A stretch of 64,000 nt of DNA, from contig FN649740.1 in the NCBI GenBank assembly GCA_000310025.1, positions 2,260,654 to 2,324,653 of the forward strand, given 5' to 3'. The notes under the pieces were generated by a model, which saw only the letters and a program-made list of their open reading frames with translations, was not told where the DNA came from and searched no databases. Both the position numbers and the translations under genes were made by a program. Below, in pieces: positions 19,881 to 29,963 of the stretch (the stretch's first letter is position 1; each line of letters starts with the position of its first letter). The DNA comes from Ectocarpus siliculosus. Its lineage: Eukaryota > Sar > Phaeophyceae > Ectocarpales > Ectocarpaceae.

Positions 19881-22800
19881 CTAGAACGCTTCCACCGCCG
19901 GCAGGGTCGAGGAAGCGCAAGGGTTCTTGTTTTCAGAGGGGATGGCCGTGAGCATGCCGACGATGTGCGAGATCTCGCCGGGCTCGTCGCTCGACACCGG
20001 GTAGCACTGGAGGTGGTTGCGGAACAGCTCCCCCTGTGGGCGTACAGTAACCGTACCGTTGGGTGGGTGGGTGGGTGGGTGGGTGTGGTGTGACACGACA
20101 GCACAAACGGCAGAGGAAAAAGGGAAAATCAGGCGCTGATATTGAGTGGCGTACAAGCCGCCGTATGTTACGGATAAGTACCGTACGGCGCGGCACGGAA
20201 ACGTTCCATGGGGTGACACGACAGCATAAACGGCAGAGGAAGAAGGGAAAATCAGGCGCTGATATTGAGTGGCGTGCAAGCTGCCGTATGGTACGGATAA
20301 GTACCGTACGGCGCGGCACGGAAACGTTCCACGAGGTGACACGACAGCACAAACGACAGACGCAAGCAAAAGACTGTGACAAAAGGCCACACAGACACCG
20401 TACAAGCCGCGGAATAGAATGGTATGATACACTACGGTGCGGTACGGTAAGTTTCGATGTGGTGTGACACGACAGCACCAACGACAGAGACAGAAGACAC
20501 AAAAATCCGGCGCTGACATCGGTGTAAAAGCGGGTGAGCAGTTTTGCTCTGGCTGAGGCAGAGAGCGCCGACGTTCCCTCCATGTAACACACGCACGTAG
20601 ATAGATGGAACAGAAGGTATCGAACGTGCCAGCGGCAGCAGAAACATCAGCAACAACAACGGCGGTCGCGAAGTACCTTTTTGTTGTGGTTGGTCACCAC
20701 CATCGACGTCGCGTAGCCCTTCTGCGAAAGCTTGCACAGCTTGTCCACGCGCGTCATGTCCGTCTCAGGACCCTGCAGGATCGGTTGCGTTTCGCAGGAT
20801 GGATGGCGTTGATGCCAGCGAGCAATGCAATAAAACTGGATACATGCTTGCGCTCGTTCGTTCTAGATCGTGAGGTTAGGGTCAACACGCCTGTCATGTA
20901 GTGCGCAAGCTTTCAACACTCCGAACTAGCAAGAGCTTCAACAGGCTGGCAGCTGCTGGTCGTTCCGGACGATTACACATCAAGCTCTGGACGGGAACGC
21001 GGGATGTTGGTCATCGCCGTCATCCTTGTTTTCCGTCCTCAACACACACACACACCCTCTTTCTCCCCCTCATCACCATCGCCGATACTTCCCACGTTCG
21101 CACTGGCCGTGGCTCAACAATCATGACTTGATCCCGGTACCCAGTTCCCCATACCACTACCACCACTACCGCTGCTACGTCCACGCAACATTCCACGACC
21201 AGGGCTACTGCTGCTTGTACTTCCAAGCTCCATGAACACCAACACGGACCATGCCTCAACGATCGTGCCTAAATACCGGTGTCCGGTTCTCCATACCACC
21301 ACCACCACCACCACCACCACTTCCACGAAACATCTTACGACTACGACTGCCGCTGCTTCTACTCCCACGCCCCACGAACACCACACCACGGTGGTATTTC
21401 TCCGAGCACTATCATACGACACACCAGCAAAATATAAAAAAAGAAGAAAGGTGCAGGCACCTGCAGGATGGAGAGGCTCTTTCCCTCGCACTCCTCGAGC
21501 TCGAAGCCGCACAGCTCGGTCCACGCCTTGTTGACGTGAGTGATGCGGAACGGCCGCTAGGGAGAGGAGGGAAAAAAACGGGACAGGGTAAAGGACGGGA
21601 GGGGGAGCAGGGGACTTGCGGGTCATTGTGGATGGGAGGAGTCTTTCTTGAGACGAACATCCAGGGTGCGGCCGAAAAACACAAAGAAGATTGAATCGGA
21701 TCATTTTCATCACCGGGCGGGGGTGCAACCACCAAGACCCAATAGCCGTCGCGTGGACGCGTGTGGGTACAGCCCTTGGGCAGGGGGGGGGGGGGGGGGG
21801 GGCATGGGGGTCCTCACCGATAAACTACAAGACAGAAGAAGCACAGCAACAAACATGAGGACCTTGAAAATCGAACACCTGCTGTCCTACCCACGCCAAT
21901 ACACCCAGTGTTACCCCAGTAGAGGGTGGTTGCACTGCAGTATCATGCTCCACGCATTAAACGGCGTTGATAGAGAAAACCCCTCCATGTATTGTACAAA
22001 GACGGGAAGAACTGCTCTGGTGTGAGAGGGGGTGGGGTGGGGGGAACACCCCTCTTTCGTGCAATCCATCACACCATGTGATCATGGACAACCAGCCACC
22101 TCAATGGGCGGGATAGGGAGATATATTTTCCACACCATCAGGCCGCCACCACTATCTGTGCACGGAGGAGCAGAGGGGCGGCGAAAAATCACGGCCCGGG
22201 CGGACGACTCACCGCAGCCGTGGTGACAACGATGCGCGTCGTCTCGTCCTTGAGGGCGTTGTCGAGGGTGTTCGGCACCGGGGGGAAGTCCTCCTTTCCG
22301 CTCGCCAGCATCAGTTGCTGGTAGCACGAGATCGCATCAAACGTCATGTCCAGCTCCTCGATCTGTTCTCAAGCAACAAACAGCAACACGAATGAGCCGG
22401 CGCCGCCATAAGGGCACACAGTCGGACAAACACAATTACTTGTCGCCCACGAACAAAATAAGCAAGAAAAACATCGCGCGTAACTAAAATCAAACGCAGC
22501 ACAGTCTTCAAGACGCACATTCTTCGCCCCCCAAAAGCGAATTTGAATGTGACAGGTCAGACAACGCACCGACGGTCGGGGGTGGGAGGAAATTGTTACA
22601 GGACAGAAAACACGCCGACTTTGTCGAAACACGGCATCGTGAAGCCCGGTACTTTGCTCATGCAGGCTGACTGGACGAAAAACAGAAAAACAAAGAAGAG
22701 AACATCACAACACAACAGCAAAGAGACAGGAGAAGTAGATACAGTCGTAGAGGCAGCCGCGGCAGGCGAACATTGAAATCGACGGCGAAACGCGATTACA

Positions 22801-24104
22801 CAAGGAAGGGCGTCCTCCACTAACCTTGTTGGTGTCGCTGCTGAAGCGCACACGCACCATGCCGTTCACCTCCCACTCTCGCTTGGCCGCATGCTTGCTG
22901 TCATGTATGGGTCAGGGAGAGAGCAATAAAAAAAAAGACCACGTGACGGGCAATATACATCAGCAAAGGAGCAAAACGGACCACCATCGGCGGTTCAGGT
23001 AACAGTTAAGTTACCTTCAAGCTCCGACCCCTAGTTGCTACGGGTGGGGATAGCGCGTAGGACCGGTCGCCGGTGGTTTCAGGGTGCACAAGAGCGCCAA
23101 CCTGGTGCGTGTCCTCACGAACGTCTATTTAGTACACATACCTCCACAGAGAACGAAGTGCAAGCCTCAAGCCTCATTGTTATGTGTGTCGGTGTGCACA
23201 ATCATATATACGCTCACTGGCACCAAGACAACAACACCCAGTCGTGGACCTGATGAACGTATGCATAGACACCCTGCAAACCAGAGAATAGCCGCCTGAC
23301 TCGCAATCACCAATGAAAAGGCACTACCAATGTTATACTTCGTGTAGGAGCATGCTGTGAAATGTTCACTAAAACGTGCGTTGACCTTTGTAAAACACCC
23401 CTGTGCGTTTCCGCCTCTTCCTCCCCCACCCCCACCCTAAGCGCACCACCCATCTCTCAACCAAAACATAAACGACGCTTGCTACATTTGGTCTCATTCT
23501 CTTACACGGCGTCGAGCGTGCGCATGGTGAAGGAGCACATCAGGCCGTCCCGGCTGAAGAACGCGCCCCCCTCCTCGGCGTCCGAGGCCAGGGTAAACTT
23601 GATCGACACGGGGCTCTCGTTGCGGCGAGTCTTGACGCCGATGTTGTCCAGCAGGACGGAGAGGCTCTGGGTGTCGGAGATCATGCCTGTTGGAGTCCAG
23701 GAAGGACGCCGACCATGAATATCGGGGAAAGTGAAGAGGTGAACGTTTGGTTCCACCGCCTCTTCCTACAACAAAAATTCCTGAGCAGGCAAGCGCGACC
23801 AGTGCTACCAGGGCAACACGAATACGCCAAAGCACTGCAATTACCTTACCCCTGCCTCTTTGTCTCTCTCGCCAGCTACATCTACATCTCAACCACATAC
23901 TCCCCAACTCCGAATCCATCACAGTCCCTCTCCTCTACCAATATCTCTCTCCAACAATTTCTCGATTTCTCGCACTCTTTGTCTCCGCCAACCCCTCACA
24001 ACCACCTTTCTCTCACTGCTTTTCTCTCCAATTCGCCAACCCCTCACAAACCCCCTCCTCCCACCTCTCACCGTGGCCCCCTCTCTCCAATTAACCTTAC
24101 ACAC

Positions 24105-24189
<85 letters not shown>

Positions 24190-26804
24190 ACCGCCCACGC
24201 CGAGCAACACGCGGCGGTTGTTGACCACATCGGCGGGGTTGAAGGACCGGTACGGCGTGATCGGCATGGTCATCCGGAGGTCCGGCGACAGCACCTCCAG
24301 CCACGAGGCCTCGTCGGCGCAGCCATCCGCGCGGAGGTCGAACACCTGCGCGAGCGGCGGGGGGGCGTCGCGGAAGGATCTGGCTTTGTAAGGCAGCTAT
24401 TCAGATATAATATACTTCCAACCAAAACACAGTAAGACTAACCGTTCGGAGATGTAACCACAGTCGAAAGACACTTGTTTTTATTTCGTAAATATTCGAT
24501 CAGAAGAGAGACTGGCCGATCGAGAAAATACCTACAGCAGTAGTCGAGAGGAAGATTTGTTGTGCAGGGGCGAGAGGGAAGGCTGCCCTGGGGTAAATCG
24601 GACCATGCAGACGACGGCACAGCTTTAGTCTGACAAAATGACGTAGACGGGTCGTCCCAACATGGGTACCAGTACAGTAGCAGCAGGGTGCCAAGATCAG
24701 CAGGGGCAGCAACAACACCACTGCCAACAACAAGAGCAGCTACACCACAGGAGTGCGCACCAGAGAGAGAGAGGGAGAGAGCTTAGTCCTCCTACTGGTG
24801 TGTGGTGTGTGTGCGAGAACCATCCCGGCAAGTGGTCTTCCATCATCACCACCCAAATATTTCCCAAATGACTAGGTGTTGTGGGAGAAGTCAACCACCC
24901 ACCTTGCGTAACGCCTGGCAGCGAGCGGTGCGACAGTCTTTGAGCTTCTTGGCGGCCTCCTTCTCCCTCGCCACAGCCTCGGCCTGAAATCCCACAAGAC
25001 ACAACAGGAGAGGTCGACAGGCAAACACGAACGGAAATTGAGTACAAGTATGTAGATAAAGGCAAAAGGAAAAAGAAAGAGTGACAGCAACAACATATGC
25101 ATCGCCTTGACGAAAGCGGAGTAGTAGTAGTAGCCCAAAACACACACACAAAAAATCGAACGGAAAGAAACCTGTTGTTCACAAGTCCTCTCTCCCCTCT
25201 GATTCATGTACTGAGGGGGGGGGGGGGGTGCTGCTGTTTCCCTACAACAGAAAATGCTTCCTCCTTCCACGTGCACGACAAACCATTGGCCATCTCTCCT
25301 TCTCACCGATTCCTTTTCGAGCTGGTTGAGCTGCTGCTGCATCTTGTCCGCGCACTGCTTCTTGAGCTTCCGAGACTTGCGGGCCTGCCTGCGGTTGCGC
25401 TCCCTGTCCATGAGTTTCTTCTCGTCGACGCTGGAGGACGACTGCAGGCGCAAAAGGGAGAGGCAAGAAAAAAAGCGCGTCAAACATCGACGCGTTTCAG
25501 CAGCAAGACAACAAGTCTGTTGGGAGTATTCGGGAACACGAAACAGGGGAGGCCGCGGGGTCTCGGGGACAACGAAAAACAAACAGATGGACGGTGGAAG
25601 TGACGAGTCGAAGAGGTGCGCCACTTGGGTCACCAGCATCGATCATTTCTTGTCTCCGTTTGGCATATTTTCTTCTCTTTTTCGCACACATTTGGAAGAT
25701 TGGTGCGTCAATTGCGTCACGAGGATAGGAGACCAGGGAGAAATATGAGGATTTAAGAAAGAACGGGCGGGAAACTACGACAACACGTACTGGAGACACG
25801 TGAAAGAAGCATCAGACAAAAAAAAACGCAACCGTACCTGTGAAACGAAAGCACGGGGCAGAGGGGCATGCCTCACAAAATTCATTTCTCGAAGGAAAAT
25901 GGCATCACAGCCCCCTAAAGCAGTGTCTCTTCTCTCCCATGCCCAAGAGGTGGACTAATGAGGCCCTGACTGATCCTCGAGTTACGGTGCGAAGACATCC
26001 GGCAACAACTGGGGGCGAAACTACACTATCGCATGCGCCGACAGCACCAAGCAATTCTCATCAGTCATCGTTTGTCTCTTGTCCCTGGGCGCCGGGGAGA
26101 GGCGTAATGGCACAAGAAACCCCATCCGGATGGCTGAGACAAAACACCCAACAACCCCACCAAAAAGTAGGCGAAGTCATAGCATACAGAAACCCAACCC
26201 GTGCCTGGGAAAAAAACACCAAAACACCAACAACAGCAACAGCAGACAACAACACACGGCATTCACAAAACATTCCCGCCTTCCTCACCTCGGTCTCGGA
26301 GTGAGACGCAGCAGACGACGAGGAGTACGACGCGGAGCCGGAGTCAGCGGCATCGATCCGGCTTCTCTTGCTGGCGTGGTTCACGCTCTCCCACTGGTGC
26401 GAGAACAACAAAAAACACCACCATCCAACAAGAATTTACATCCATGACAATGGTGGTGTGCGGGCGAGGGAGTAAAGGCTAAGGGTTCGTCAAGGCGTCT
26501 CTTTTCGTGTGCGATAAACGCCTTCCAAGCTGACGCCGCGCGCTCCCGCTACGGCGAGCAGTGAGCTACAAATTGTCCCCCCATCTACAGAGAGAGAGAC
26601 AGGTTCGTCAAGTACAAAAATTACCAGAGAACATGTCTAATGGCAGGTAAAAAGAAGCCTTATCCATACCGTGGAGGGCATCCCCATGAAGCCTCCGTTC
26701 ATCATGGCGATGGTACGGGGAAGGTTGGCCATGGCCACGTCGTTGTACAAGCCAGCGGTGGCGACGTCACCGCCGTACACTCCGAAGGAGCCCATCATGT
26801 CCAT
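19881..26804 (-). CDS. bZIP-PAS transcription factor, eleven exons, 469 aa
   Basis: Eleven exons join in phase: 26804-26670, 26393-26289, 25441-25307, 24983-24903, 24396-24192, 23686-23506, 22897-22825, 22362-22213, 21556-21461, 20772-20677 and 20033-19881, with a TAG stop at 19881-19883. Residues 1-80 are Gly/Met- and Ser-rich. A bZIP basic region (NRRQARKSRKLKKQ, matching N-x7-R) lies near residues 95-110, followed by a short zipper. A middle part (residues 155-320, including TPYRSFNPADVVNNRR) is not in a family I can name. The C-terminal PAS domain (about 345-450) contains VNKAWTELCGF and LQGPETD. The layout resembles aureochromes and the bZIP-PAS factors of stramenopiles; the LOV Cys is Leu, so light sensing through a Cys adduct is not expected. 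A nuclear DNA-binding regulator is inferred. The open frame extends upstream (SPEKKARFGDTHT before the Met), so an earlier exon is possible. Confidence 0.8.
20059..20088 (+). repeat. (GGGT)n microsatellite
   Basis: Six to seven GGGT units lie just inside the last intron of the bZIP-PAS gene. Confidence 0.9.
20090..20540 (+). repeat. Tandem repeat of about 125 bp, 3.5 units, intronic
   Basis: Units start at 20090, 20213, 20336 and 20464 with GTGACACGACAGCA. The first two are nearly identical (GGCGCTGATATTGAGTGGCG inside); the third is diverged and the fourth partial. It lies in the last intron of the bZIP-PAS gene. Confidence 0.85.
21114..21400 (+). repeat. Direct duplication of about 142 bp, intronic
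   Basis: Two units start at TCAACAATC (21114) and TCAACGATC (21256). Both run through CCATACCAC, a CCA-rich stretch and CACGAACACC or CATGAACACC. They lie between the PAS exons 20772 and 21461. Confidence 0.75.
24109..24184. repeat. (CT)n microsatellite next to a splice donor
   Basis: About 38 CT units lie seven bases past the donor (GTGAGATA) of the exon 24396-24192; on the sense strand this reads GA. Confidence 0.95.
25307..25441 (-). CDS. bZIP exon
   Basis: These 45 codons, phase 0 at both ends, hold the DNA-binding basic region. Asn and Arg of the N-x7-R signature are in NRRQARKSR. Leucines and other hydrophobic residues recur in the following QQQLNQLEKE and continue into the exon at 24983-24903, where charged and Ala residues weaken the zipper. 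The exon starts after a GCAG acceptor and ends at GTGAGA. Confidence 0.85.
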
Positions 26805-28387
26805 GGTGTGCGTGTCGCCAAAACGTGCTTTTTTTTCCGGTGAGGCAGGTCTGAGGAGAAGGAGGAACATGAATCAGCAGCAGCAAAAGCAGCAGTCAGC
26901 ATTTGCTGTTGCAAATCGCAGGACAACAAACACACACAGATCGATAGACAGAGAGAGATCGGCAAACATATATGACGTATATATAGAGAGAAAGAGGAGG
27001 GAAAGAGAGAGAGTCCCCACGCATGTTGTCGTGCGAAGCCGACAACATTTCACACCAAGGGCAATACGCCCTGCTTTCGGTTTGGTTCCGGCTTCGAGAT
27101 TTGACTTTGCCAAGACTTAGGGACGGAACCGTGGGTACCGAGCATCCTTCATTCTCGATGCTGCATGAGGGCGTTGGGCAGCGGCGGCGGGAGTGTACTC
27201 ATGGCCGTGCATGCCGTAGTTGTTAGACCATTGACCTTGCATCCCAATAAAGCCGGATCCGAGCACGCCGGGTTCTCACCGGACCAGGTTCGGTACCAAG
27301 CGCCGTGATGAATTCCGCGAGATGGGGGGGCGGGGTGGTGGGATAGAGAAGGAACCTACCGGTAGTGGATAAGTGGAAGAGTGCATCCCCGGGAAGCCCG
27401 GGAGCCTTCCGCGTAGGTCGTGCCCTGCGTGCTTTTTTCATTCTTCGACCCGAATGGTACGAAAGAGGAGGTTCCCAACGTGGAGGCATACAGAAGCCGA
27501 TAGTGCAATGTCTTGATTTTAGCTTCTACACAATTTGTACTTGAAAAAACAACAACCGCAACAACTGCTCTGTATTCACTTCTTTTGGGAGTGCAAGTGG
27601 GTGAAGCAACTGCTGAGTCACTCCCAAAACCACATGCACCGCGCATTACACTCTTCTACATCAACCCGGACAGGGGTTTCTTACTTCTACCCCGGCTATA
27701 CCCTGTTCCGAACCGTCTCTCTGAGCTTTGAATAGCTGTTGAAGGTGCCGGTTGGCATGTTGGAACGTTTGTCAACTGCGCCGACCTGTTGATTGCCGCA
27801 ATGTACTTGACAGTTTTGGACGTATGAGCCCGTCTGGACTTGCGGCACGTGCCAGAGTGATTGGGAGCCACTGTCGTCTCTCACTTCTCCGTCTCTACTT
27901 CCTTCTTCTGATGGCAAAACCCTGGTACAACGTTATCATAGCGCATCCCTACCGACTGCTGGGCAGCCAAAGGCTAACCGGCCTGTACGTCCTACCAACA
28001 CCCCCCCCCCCCCTTGGGAGGATTACTGTACATATAATGTTGAAAATCTCCAGGGCCGCCTCTCTGTTCATGATACGTATAAATAGTCCTACAAGCAGTA
28101 TCAACTCGGGCGTTCCTTTCCTGTTTTACGTGGAAGAACCTGGCGGGATCACACCGGAAAGTGTTTGTGTGTATGTGTTTCTTCCAGTACATCTGCCCCC
28201 GGGGGTGGTTCAGTTGGTAGTCTCGTCAATATCCATATCTGACTGTCCATGGGTACACAGCTGGGTACACAGTTGTACAGCAGTAGTGGGCCCTGTGTAG
28301 TGCCGGTATGTATGTGTCCAGAGGTTTTACCGGCACAAAACCGGGCCACCGACACTAGCGAGAACAGGGATATATAGTTTTACAGGA
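26805..28387. other. Stretch upstream of the bZIP-PAS gene
   Basis: No gene is assigned. It should contain the promoter and perhaps a first exon of the minus-strand bZIP-PAS gene. It includes a dispersed repeat (27191-27322) and a run of C at 28000-28013. No TATA-like or other promoter element could be supported. Confidence 0.4.
27191..27322 (+). repeat. Dispersed 130-bp repeat, copy 1
   Basis: The stretch matches 60823-60982. Shared words are GCATGCCGTAGT, GACCATTGACCT, AAAGCCGG and GAGCACGCCGGGTTCTCACC. Confidence 0.8.
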
Positions 28388-29963
28388 GTGGACACTCGTG
28401 CCCACAGAGACGTGACTGTACCGGACTGTGGTACTATGCTGTTCGTCGTGCGCCGCCTCCAGGAGCTGGGGCGGAGAAAGAAAAAACCGCTCTACATGTG
28501 CTTCGTCGACTTGAATAAGGCGTATGATTCGGTGGACCGAGACATGCATTGGAAGGTGCTGGCCAGGGCCGGGATTCCCGCGAAGCTAATCAAAGTCATC
28601 CGCCAATTCCGCGATGGAATGCGGGCCCGGGTGCGCATGGACGACGGAAAACTATCGGACTGGTTCTTCGTCACATAGGGCGTGCGACAAGGATGTGTGC
28701 TATCCCCACTGCTGTTCGACATCTTCTTCGCCGAGGTCCTCGAGGTCGTCGTTATCCGATTCAGCGAGGATGATGTTCTGCGGAACCTGGTGTGCTTGGA
28801 GGAGGGGAAGACGGAAGCGGGGGGGGGGGCGGGAGGAGACACCCCTTGACCGAGTACGGAGGGCAGTATGGGGGATGCTGTATACCGATGATGCCGGCGT
28901 CGTATCGAGGTCTGCAGAAGGACTGGCGAGAATGATGACCATCATCGTTGAGGTGTTCGGAGAGTTCGGGCTAACGGTGTCGGAGAAGAAGACGGAGACA
29001 CTCCTGATGCGCGCGAAGGACAAGTCGACTACAACATCACAGCCCCCCCCGCCTCCACCACTGACCATCGAAGCCGCGGGACAGAAATACGCCCAGACGA
29101 CCGAGTTCCGGTACCTCGGTGGCCTCGTCAACGAACATGGCCACCTCACCCGGAATATCAACTACAGGAGCAGAGGAGCGTGGGCGTGCCTCAGGCGATA
29201 TGGCCAGGAGCTCTTCGACAGACCGAAAGCGCCATTCCGACTCAAGATCCGCCTCCTCCAGGCGGAGGCGATGGAGGCACTGCTGTACGGCTTCATGACA
29301 TGGTCACCACTCAGCGGCCACTACCAGACGCTGCGGTCGATACACCACCGACTGCTCCTTCGAGTTATCGGGTACAAGCGCAAGAAAGACACCTACCGGC
29401 AGCTCTCGTACGCCCAGACGCTGAAGAGGGTCGGATGCCAGAGCGTTGAAGCCACGATCCGACAACGACGCCAACTGTTCGCGGGAGCACTGGCAAGGCA
29501 GCCGGACGGGCGAATCCCGAAACGACTGATGTTCGGCGAGCTGGCGGGGGGGGGAGAAGCCACGTAGGGGGGGACAGGAACAGAACTGCCCGAAGTGTGT
29601 GCTCGACGACCTGAAGGCATTCGGGGCCGACCACGGATCTACGAAAACCGATCCATGTTGTCTCGGAATCCCGGTACCGAAAGACACGGCACCGAAGTTA
29701 AGGTGGACGGAAGCCGCGAAGGTGGAGGGGGGAGTACCCTGGCATGCGGCGGTGCTGCAGGGAGCTGAGAGGTTCATGACCTCCTGGCACAAGAAGGAAG
29801 AAGAGGCCAGCCGACAACGAGCGCTCAAACGAAACCACAAGCCAACAACCAATGGGGCGGAAGGAGGCAGGAGACGGACGAGACGGCGAGGGAAGAAAGC
29901 AAACGAGAAGAGACGGACCGAGTGGCGCGATACGTGCCGGATTGAATTTTTTCTAGCCAATTC
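28388..29963 (+). mobile_element. Non-LTR retrotransposon remnant (LINE-type reverse transcriptase)
   Basis: The reading starts inside the fingers of a reverse transcriptase and follows LINE motifs: CFVDLNKAYDSVDR, GVRQGCVLSPLLFD, the catalytic box YTDDAG (28881-28898), GLTVSEKKTETLLM and TTEFRYLGGLVNEHG. A Lys/Arg-rich tail ends near 29963. The endonuclease and the first part of the reverse transcriptase are missing, so the copy is 5'-truncated. Three lesions break the frame: TAG at 28676-28678 in place of a usual Gln codon, a shift at the G-run near 28820-28828 and a shift at the G-run near 29547-29556. T-rich sequence follows at 30100-30220. The catalytic box has Thr where most LINEs have Ala. 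Confidence 0.9.

Follow-up and report, generated by a model that had tools for sequence, protein, structure and literature searches.

A predicted bZIP-PAS factor with a LOV-related PAS domain lacking the photoactive cysteine in Ectocarpus siliculosus

A gene in a 64,000-nucleotide stretch of the Ectocarpus siliculosus genome (contig FN649740.1, forward-strand positions 2,260,654 to 2,324,653; hereafter, the window, whose own numbering is used throughout) probably encodes a stramenopile bZIP-PAS factor that combines a weak bZIP region, a conserved middle domain, and, at the C-terminus, a LOV-related PAS domain that lacks flavin photochemistry. Such a factor would most likely bind DNA as a dimer and would not respond to light, with the PAS domain acting as a module for dimerisation, for binding a partner, or for binding a ligand other than flavin; our confidence in any single one of these PAS roles is lower than in the reading as a whole.

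Gene structure and the bZIP region

The gene lies on the minus strand (26804..19881) and comprises 11 exons, separated by introns of 276 to 847 bases that are all of the GT-AG type. Its third-position GC content (GC3) is 0.90, versus 0.54 for the whole window. The predicted product has 452 residues (452 codons plus stop) in our re-derived model, in place of the 469 first reported. Exon 1 (26670..26804; residues 1 to 45) supplies the start codon, exon 2 (26289..26393; residues 46 to 80) a Ser-rich linker, and exon 3 (25307..25441; residues 81 to 125) the bZIP basic region, NRRQARKSR, together with the start of the zipper, whose coiled coil continues in exon 4 (24903..24983), where the heptad d sites are poor in Leu as judged by eye. 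The middle domain extends through exons 5 (24192..24345, with the motif MPITPYRSF), 6 (23506..23686), and 7 (22825..22897) into exon 8 (22213..22362), which also begins the PAS domain. The PAS core occupies exon 9 (21461..21556), up to GKSLSILQ, in which Leu takes the LOV Cys site; after intron 9 (20773..21460, phase 0, at LQ|GP), exon 10 (20677..20772) carries the domain from GPETD through NHNKK, and exon 11 (19881..20033) provides the final PAS strands and the stop codon.

The N-terminal bZIP region that had been proposed is present, although weakly. Its Pfam match (bZIP_2, E 0.29, 11.7 bits) stays below the cut-off of 22.3 bits, and a search of the PDB returned seven sequences at E ≤ 10, six of which are FosB/c-Fos bZIPs (best E 0.007). 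By profile-profile comparison (hhalign), the bZIP regions of the window gene and its paralog C25 matched those of three of the genome's own aureochromes over 34 columns (E 3e-7, probability 93). The zipper looks weak because its heptad d positions read, by eye, Met, Leu, Ala, Ala, Cys, and Ala. The bZIP-like exon of C25 is likewise below the Pfam cut-off (bZIP_1, E 0.0012).

Placement of the PAS domain

The PAS domain of the window gene matches Pfam PAS_9 at 29.1 bits (cut-off, 27), or at 31.8 bits when the domain is searched alone. Against the PDB, it retrieves 131 distinct sequences at E ≤ 1 (best E 1e-10), among them VfAUREO1 (3ue6) at E 5e-10, and we take the best 60 of these 131 matches to be LOV proteins, in part by their molecule names. 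The C25 PAS domain retrieves 130 sequences at E ≤ 0.001 (best E 3e-17), the best 60 of which are presumably LOV proteins on the same grounds. The PAS domain of a further paralog, C26, whose exons were joined by hand, had no PDB match at E ≤ 10, and LOV kinship is thus shown for two of the three bZIP-PAS genes. Two control PAS domains from the same genome behaved otherwise: most of the 31 sequences that one of them matched at E ≤ 10 were ARNT, the other had a sensory-box kinase as its best match (12 sequences), and neither matched a PDB chain named aureochrome or phototropin. Together, these matches place the window PAS domain within the LOV-related group, and the profile search that could have moved it outside left it inside.

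The domain and the LOV domain of L029, an aureochrome from the same genome, are 27% identical across 84 residues. Scans for PAS relatives gave 29 pattern matches in viral contigs and 15 in prokaryote genomes, none of which was confirmed, either as a PAS relative or as a relative of the diatom-type bZIP6/7-PAS or oomycete BZPc32 proteins; the patterns used did not include the LQGP stretch, which makes these scans insensitive to LOV domains.

Cys site and flavin pocket

In agreement with the original prediction, alignment places a Leu in the column of the adduct-forming LOV Cys. The alignment used for the pocket comparison has 15 rows, with the C24 1235-kb locus, the second Cys-LOV domain of L028, and the L036 domain kept outside it. 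Relative to VfAUREO1, the window PAS domain shows the changes N449>S, C450>L, R451>S, I466>L, R467>C, F494>L, F434>W, N425>F, and Q513>L, and it retains V416, T418, L453, Q454, V463, N482, N492, and G511. True LOV rows also carry I466>L and F494>L, N425 is variable among them, and one engineered-looking LOV row (8pky) has no Gln at position 513. The C25 domain reads Thr, Leu, and Lys at 449 to 451, has Ile 453, Leu 463, Asn 467, and Met 418, and retains Q454, N482, N492, and G511.

A Leu at the Cys site leaves no canonical adduct chemistry, and that the window PAS domain would lack Cys-adduct chemistry follows from the sequence. The change at Q513 by itself says little, since LOV domains without the active-site Gln are described as still able to signal in a passage of one report (PMC9098866). 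Natural LOV* domains, like the window PAS domain, are of LOV type without the adduct Cys: Yee et al. (2015; PMC4682037) asked that, besides lacking the Cys, they retain 9 or more of 10 further LOV residues, whereas of the nine residues named there the window domain keeps five (G59, L65, Q66, N94, and N104) and C25 four. Flavin binding is therefore unlikely, and the window domain is likely to be devoid of flavin.

The same work bears on a rival reading, in which the domain would be a Cys-less LOV that has kept its flavin and, by reduction of this flavin, detects light or redox state, as shown there for BAT-LOV*. The retained N482, N492, and Q454 and the signaling ability ascribed to Cys-less LOVs in that account (PMC4682037) favor it, but the five of nine named residues set against at least 9 of 10, and the Leu and Trp that would lie close to the ring, make it improbable. 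The retention of N482, N492, and Q454, in both the window gene and C25, nevertheless exceeds what a cofactor-free pocket needs, and, with the sub-threshold Pfam score of the bZIP region, it counts against the reading that we prefer, a bZIP-PAS factor whose PAS domain lacks flavin photochemistry.

Paralogs and the middle domain

A genome search with the PAS domain yielded 10 matches at E ≤ 1, located at the window gene, C25, C26, C14, and C456. C25 reads GQTLKAIQGPRTD inside one exon, with Leu at the Cys site, and C26 reads MFPFTLMN|GPAEANN, with Phe there; the missing Cys is thus a trait of all three genes rather than a recent loss in one. Exons for the bZIP region, the middle domain, and the PAS domain follow one another in C25 in the same order as in the window gene.

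About 170 residues, conserved in the paralogs, separate the bZIP region from the PAS domain. A genome search with this middle domain gave eight matches, at the window gene, C25, C26, and C21, and at E ≤ 1 no aureochrome locus was among them. Compared with Pfam at E ≤ 10, the domain matched no family, and its one PDB match was poor (E 1.3). The motif PITPYR[SW]F occurs in the window gene, C25, and C21, and the later part of the region in the window gene, C25, and C26 (window 22213..24345; L025, L026, and L027). The middle region may define a stramenopile domain.

Aureochromes and other LOV proteins of the genome

A composite LOV query produced 15 genome matches at E ≤ 0.1, which we assign to five loci of aureochrome type (C456, C2, C24 158 kb, C24 1235 kb, and C9), an array on C14, and the C25 paralog. 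Four of the five aureochrome-like loci were readable; each has Cys at the LOV site and a bZIP region upstream. The window gene resembles the aureochromes (VfAUREO1, 3ue6; in this genome L029, L030, L033, and L035) in placing a bZIP region ahead of a LOV-type PAS domain and in its LQGPETD turn, which had rightly been called conserved. It differs from them in having Leu in place of the photoactive Cys of GRNCRFLQ, in the loss of several flavin contacts, in its additional middle domain, and in its separate position in the tree.

Two features of these loci are recorded in their own right. The C14 array (C14:1824500-1838500; L028 and L036) encodes RGS together with repeated LOV-like domains and thereby resembles brown-algal helmchrome; of the four LOV-like domains read, two contain GRNCRFLQ and two GRNSKFLQ, with a natural Ser at the Cys site. 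Such an array and the aureochromes would fit a brown alga or a near relative. The aureochrome L029 (C456:388000-397900) has the Cys but a Gln at the N482 site, and its basic region reads NRVLA, as in AUREO2; Val-Leu is also what an excerpted account gives for the basic region of Saccharina AUREO2b (PMC9416419).

Descent of the bZIP-PAS genes

The phylogeny was built from 11 short rows: the three bZIP-PAS genes (window, C25, and C26) and eight LOV domains, five of them from aureochromes. Four of the 15 aligned rows stayed outside the tree, two as partial (AUR_C2 and HEL_b) and two as poorly alignable non-LOV PAS domains (PAS_L031 and PAS_L032). The three bZIP-PAS rows fall on one side of a branch with support of 100/98, and the five aureochromes group with 98/97; when C26 is removed, the window gene and C25 group with 99/96 and the aureochromes with 89/89. 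A clade of the window PAS domain with the aureochromes only is rejected (p-AU 0.0034; 0.0106 without C26), whereas a clade joining the aureochromes with all bZIP-PAS rows is not (p-AU 0.214; 0.233 without C26). The long branches of C26, the window gene, and HEL_a make these results provisional.

The original description of an aureochrome-like layout without the chemistry survives in its components (a bZIP region, a LOV-related PAS domain, and no photoactive Cys) but is not supported as an aureochrome that has lost its chemistry only: the Leu in C25, the other lost flavin contacts, the separate middle region, and the rejected clade indicate that the gene is not an aureochrome minus one residue.

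The window gene shares its phase-0 intron at LQ|GP with C26 and with the C9 aureochrome, whereas C25, C456, and the C24 158-kb locus lack it. CAG|G is a proto-splice site, and because the intron sits in it, independent gain is possible; the intron may be ancestral or may have arisen independently. The shared intron, the bZIP profile match, and the unrejected joint clade allow an origin of the bZIP-PAS factors and the aureochromes from one bZIP-PAS fusion, with the window gene retaining a light-blind condition that either preceded the aureochrome photoreceptor or existed alongside it as it arose; we entertain this only tentatively, as possible though doubtful.

The opposite course, in which an aureochrome ancestor shed its Cys and flavin and now serves as a dark heterodimer partner, comparable to flavin-free AUREO2, draws on the same three observations (the match of E 3e-7 to the genome's own aureochromes, the LQ|GP intron of C9, and p-AU values of 0.214 and 0.233) and on the statement that PtAUREO2 does not bind flavin, found in a portion of one study (PMC7670200). 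We give it little credence: the clade of the window PAS domain with the aureochromes is rejected in both data sets, the aureochrome loci have no match to the middle domain, the Cys is absent in all three paralogs, and the intron lies in a proto-splice site and is missing from three of the loci named above.

The exons on which the Leu depends (21556..21461 and 20772..20677) join as had been proposed, GKSLSILQ|GPETD, and in phase 0 the junction reads ...EECEGKSLSILQ|GPETDMTRV..., with a GT donor and a CAG acceptor. A 10-base direct repeat, ATCCTGCAGG, lies at both ends of intron 9 (21460..21469 and 20772..20781), so that the exact junction is ambiguous while the protein is unaffected; the repeat is a trace of intron gain or a product of chance. 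An error in the gene model, whereby another exon would supply a Cys at the LOV site, has next to no likelihood: the model is a DNA-only prediction and the repeat flanks the intron, but the splice sites are canonical, the frame is open, GC3 is high, and C25 has its Leu within a single exon from which the intron is absent. Upstream of the gene, on the plus strand (28301..29564), two open frames match RVT_1 with E values of 1e-4 and 3e-5, both below the cut-off, and are probably an old retroelement.

Relation to described bZIP-PAS factors

With both domains in one protein, albeit with a weak bZIP region, the window gene is a further, and largely ordinary, member of an already described bZIP-PAS class. 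The class is described in stramenopiles, non-photosynthetic ones included. It contains the diatom bZIP6-PAS and bZIP7-PAS and the oomycete BZPc32/PlBZP32 proteins, which we liken to the window gene by their published descriptions rather than by sequence. Parts of the oomycete report (PMC7273347) state that silencing of BZPc32/PlBZP32 raised sensitivity to oxidative stress, that its orthologs are conserved across oomycetes and algae, and that the PAS domain of PlBZP32 begins about 10 residues past the bZIP, versus about 170, with a conserved region, in the window gene. Extracts from work on diatoms mention that Nitzschia putrida has homologs of the Phaeodactylum tricornutum proteins bZIP6 and bZIP7 (PMC9054022), that Thalassiosira has four bZIP-PAS proteins, two of which keep a day-night rhythm under every iron condition (PMC6738920), and that P. 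tricornutum bZIP7 is rhythmic and depends on RITMO1 (PMC12018780). These portions of the diatom and oomycete accounts mention no middle domain and do not say which residue occupies the Cys site.

Stramenopile algae have the aureochromes as their light-driven transcription factors, and a related, light-blind bZIP-PAS group offers a comparison for the origin of this photoreceptor. The group would also be a candidate dark partner of the aureochromes.
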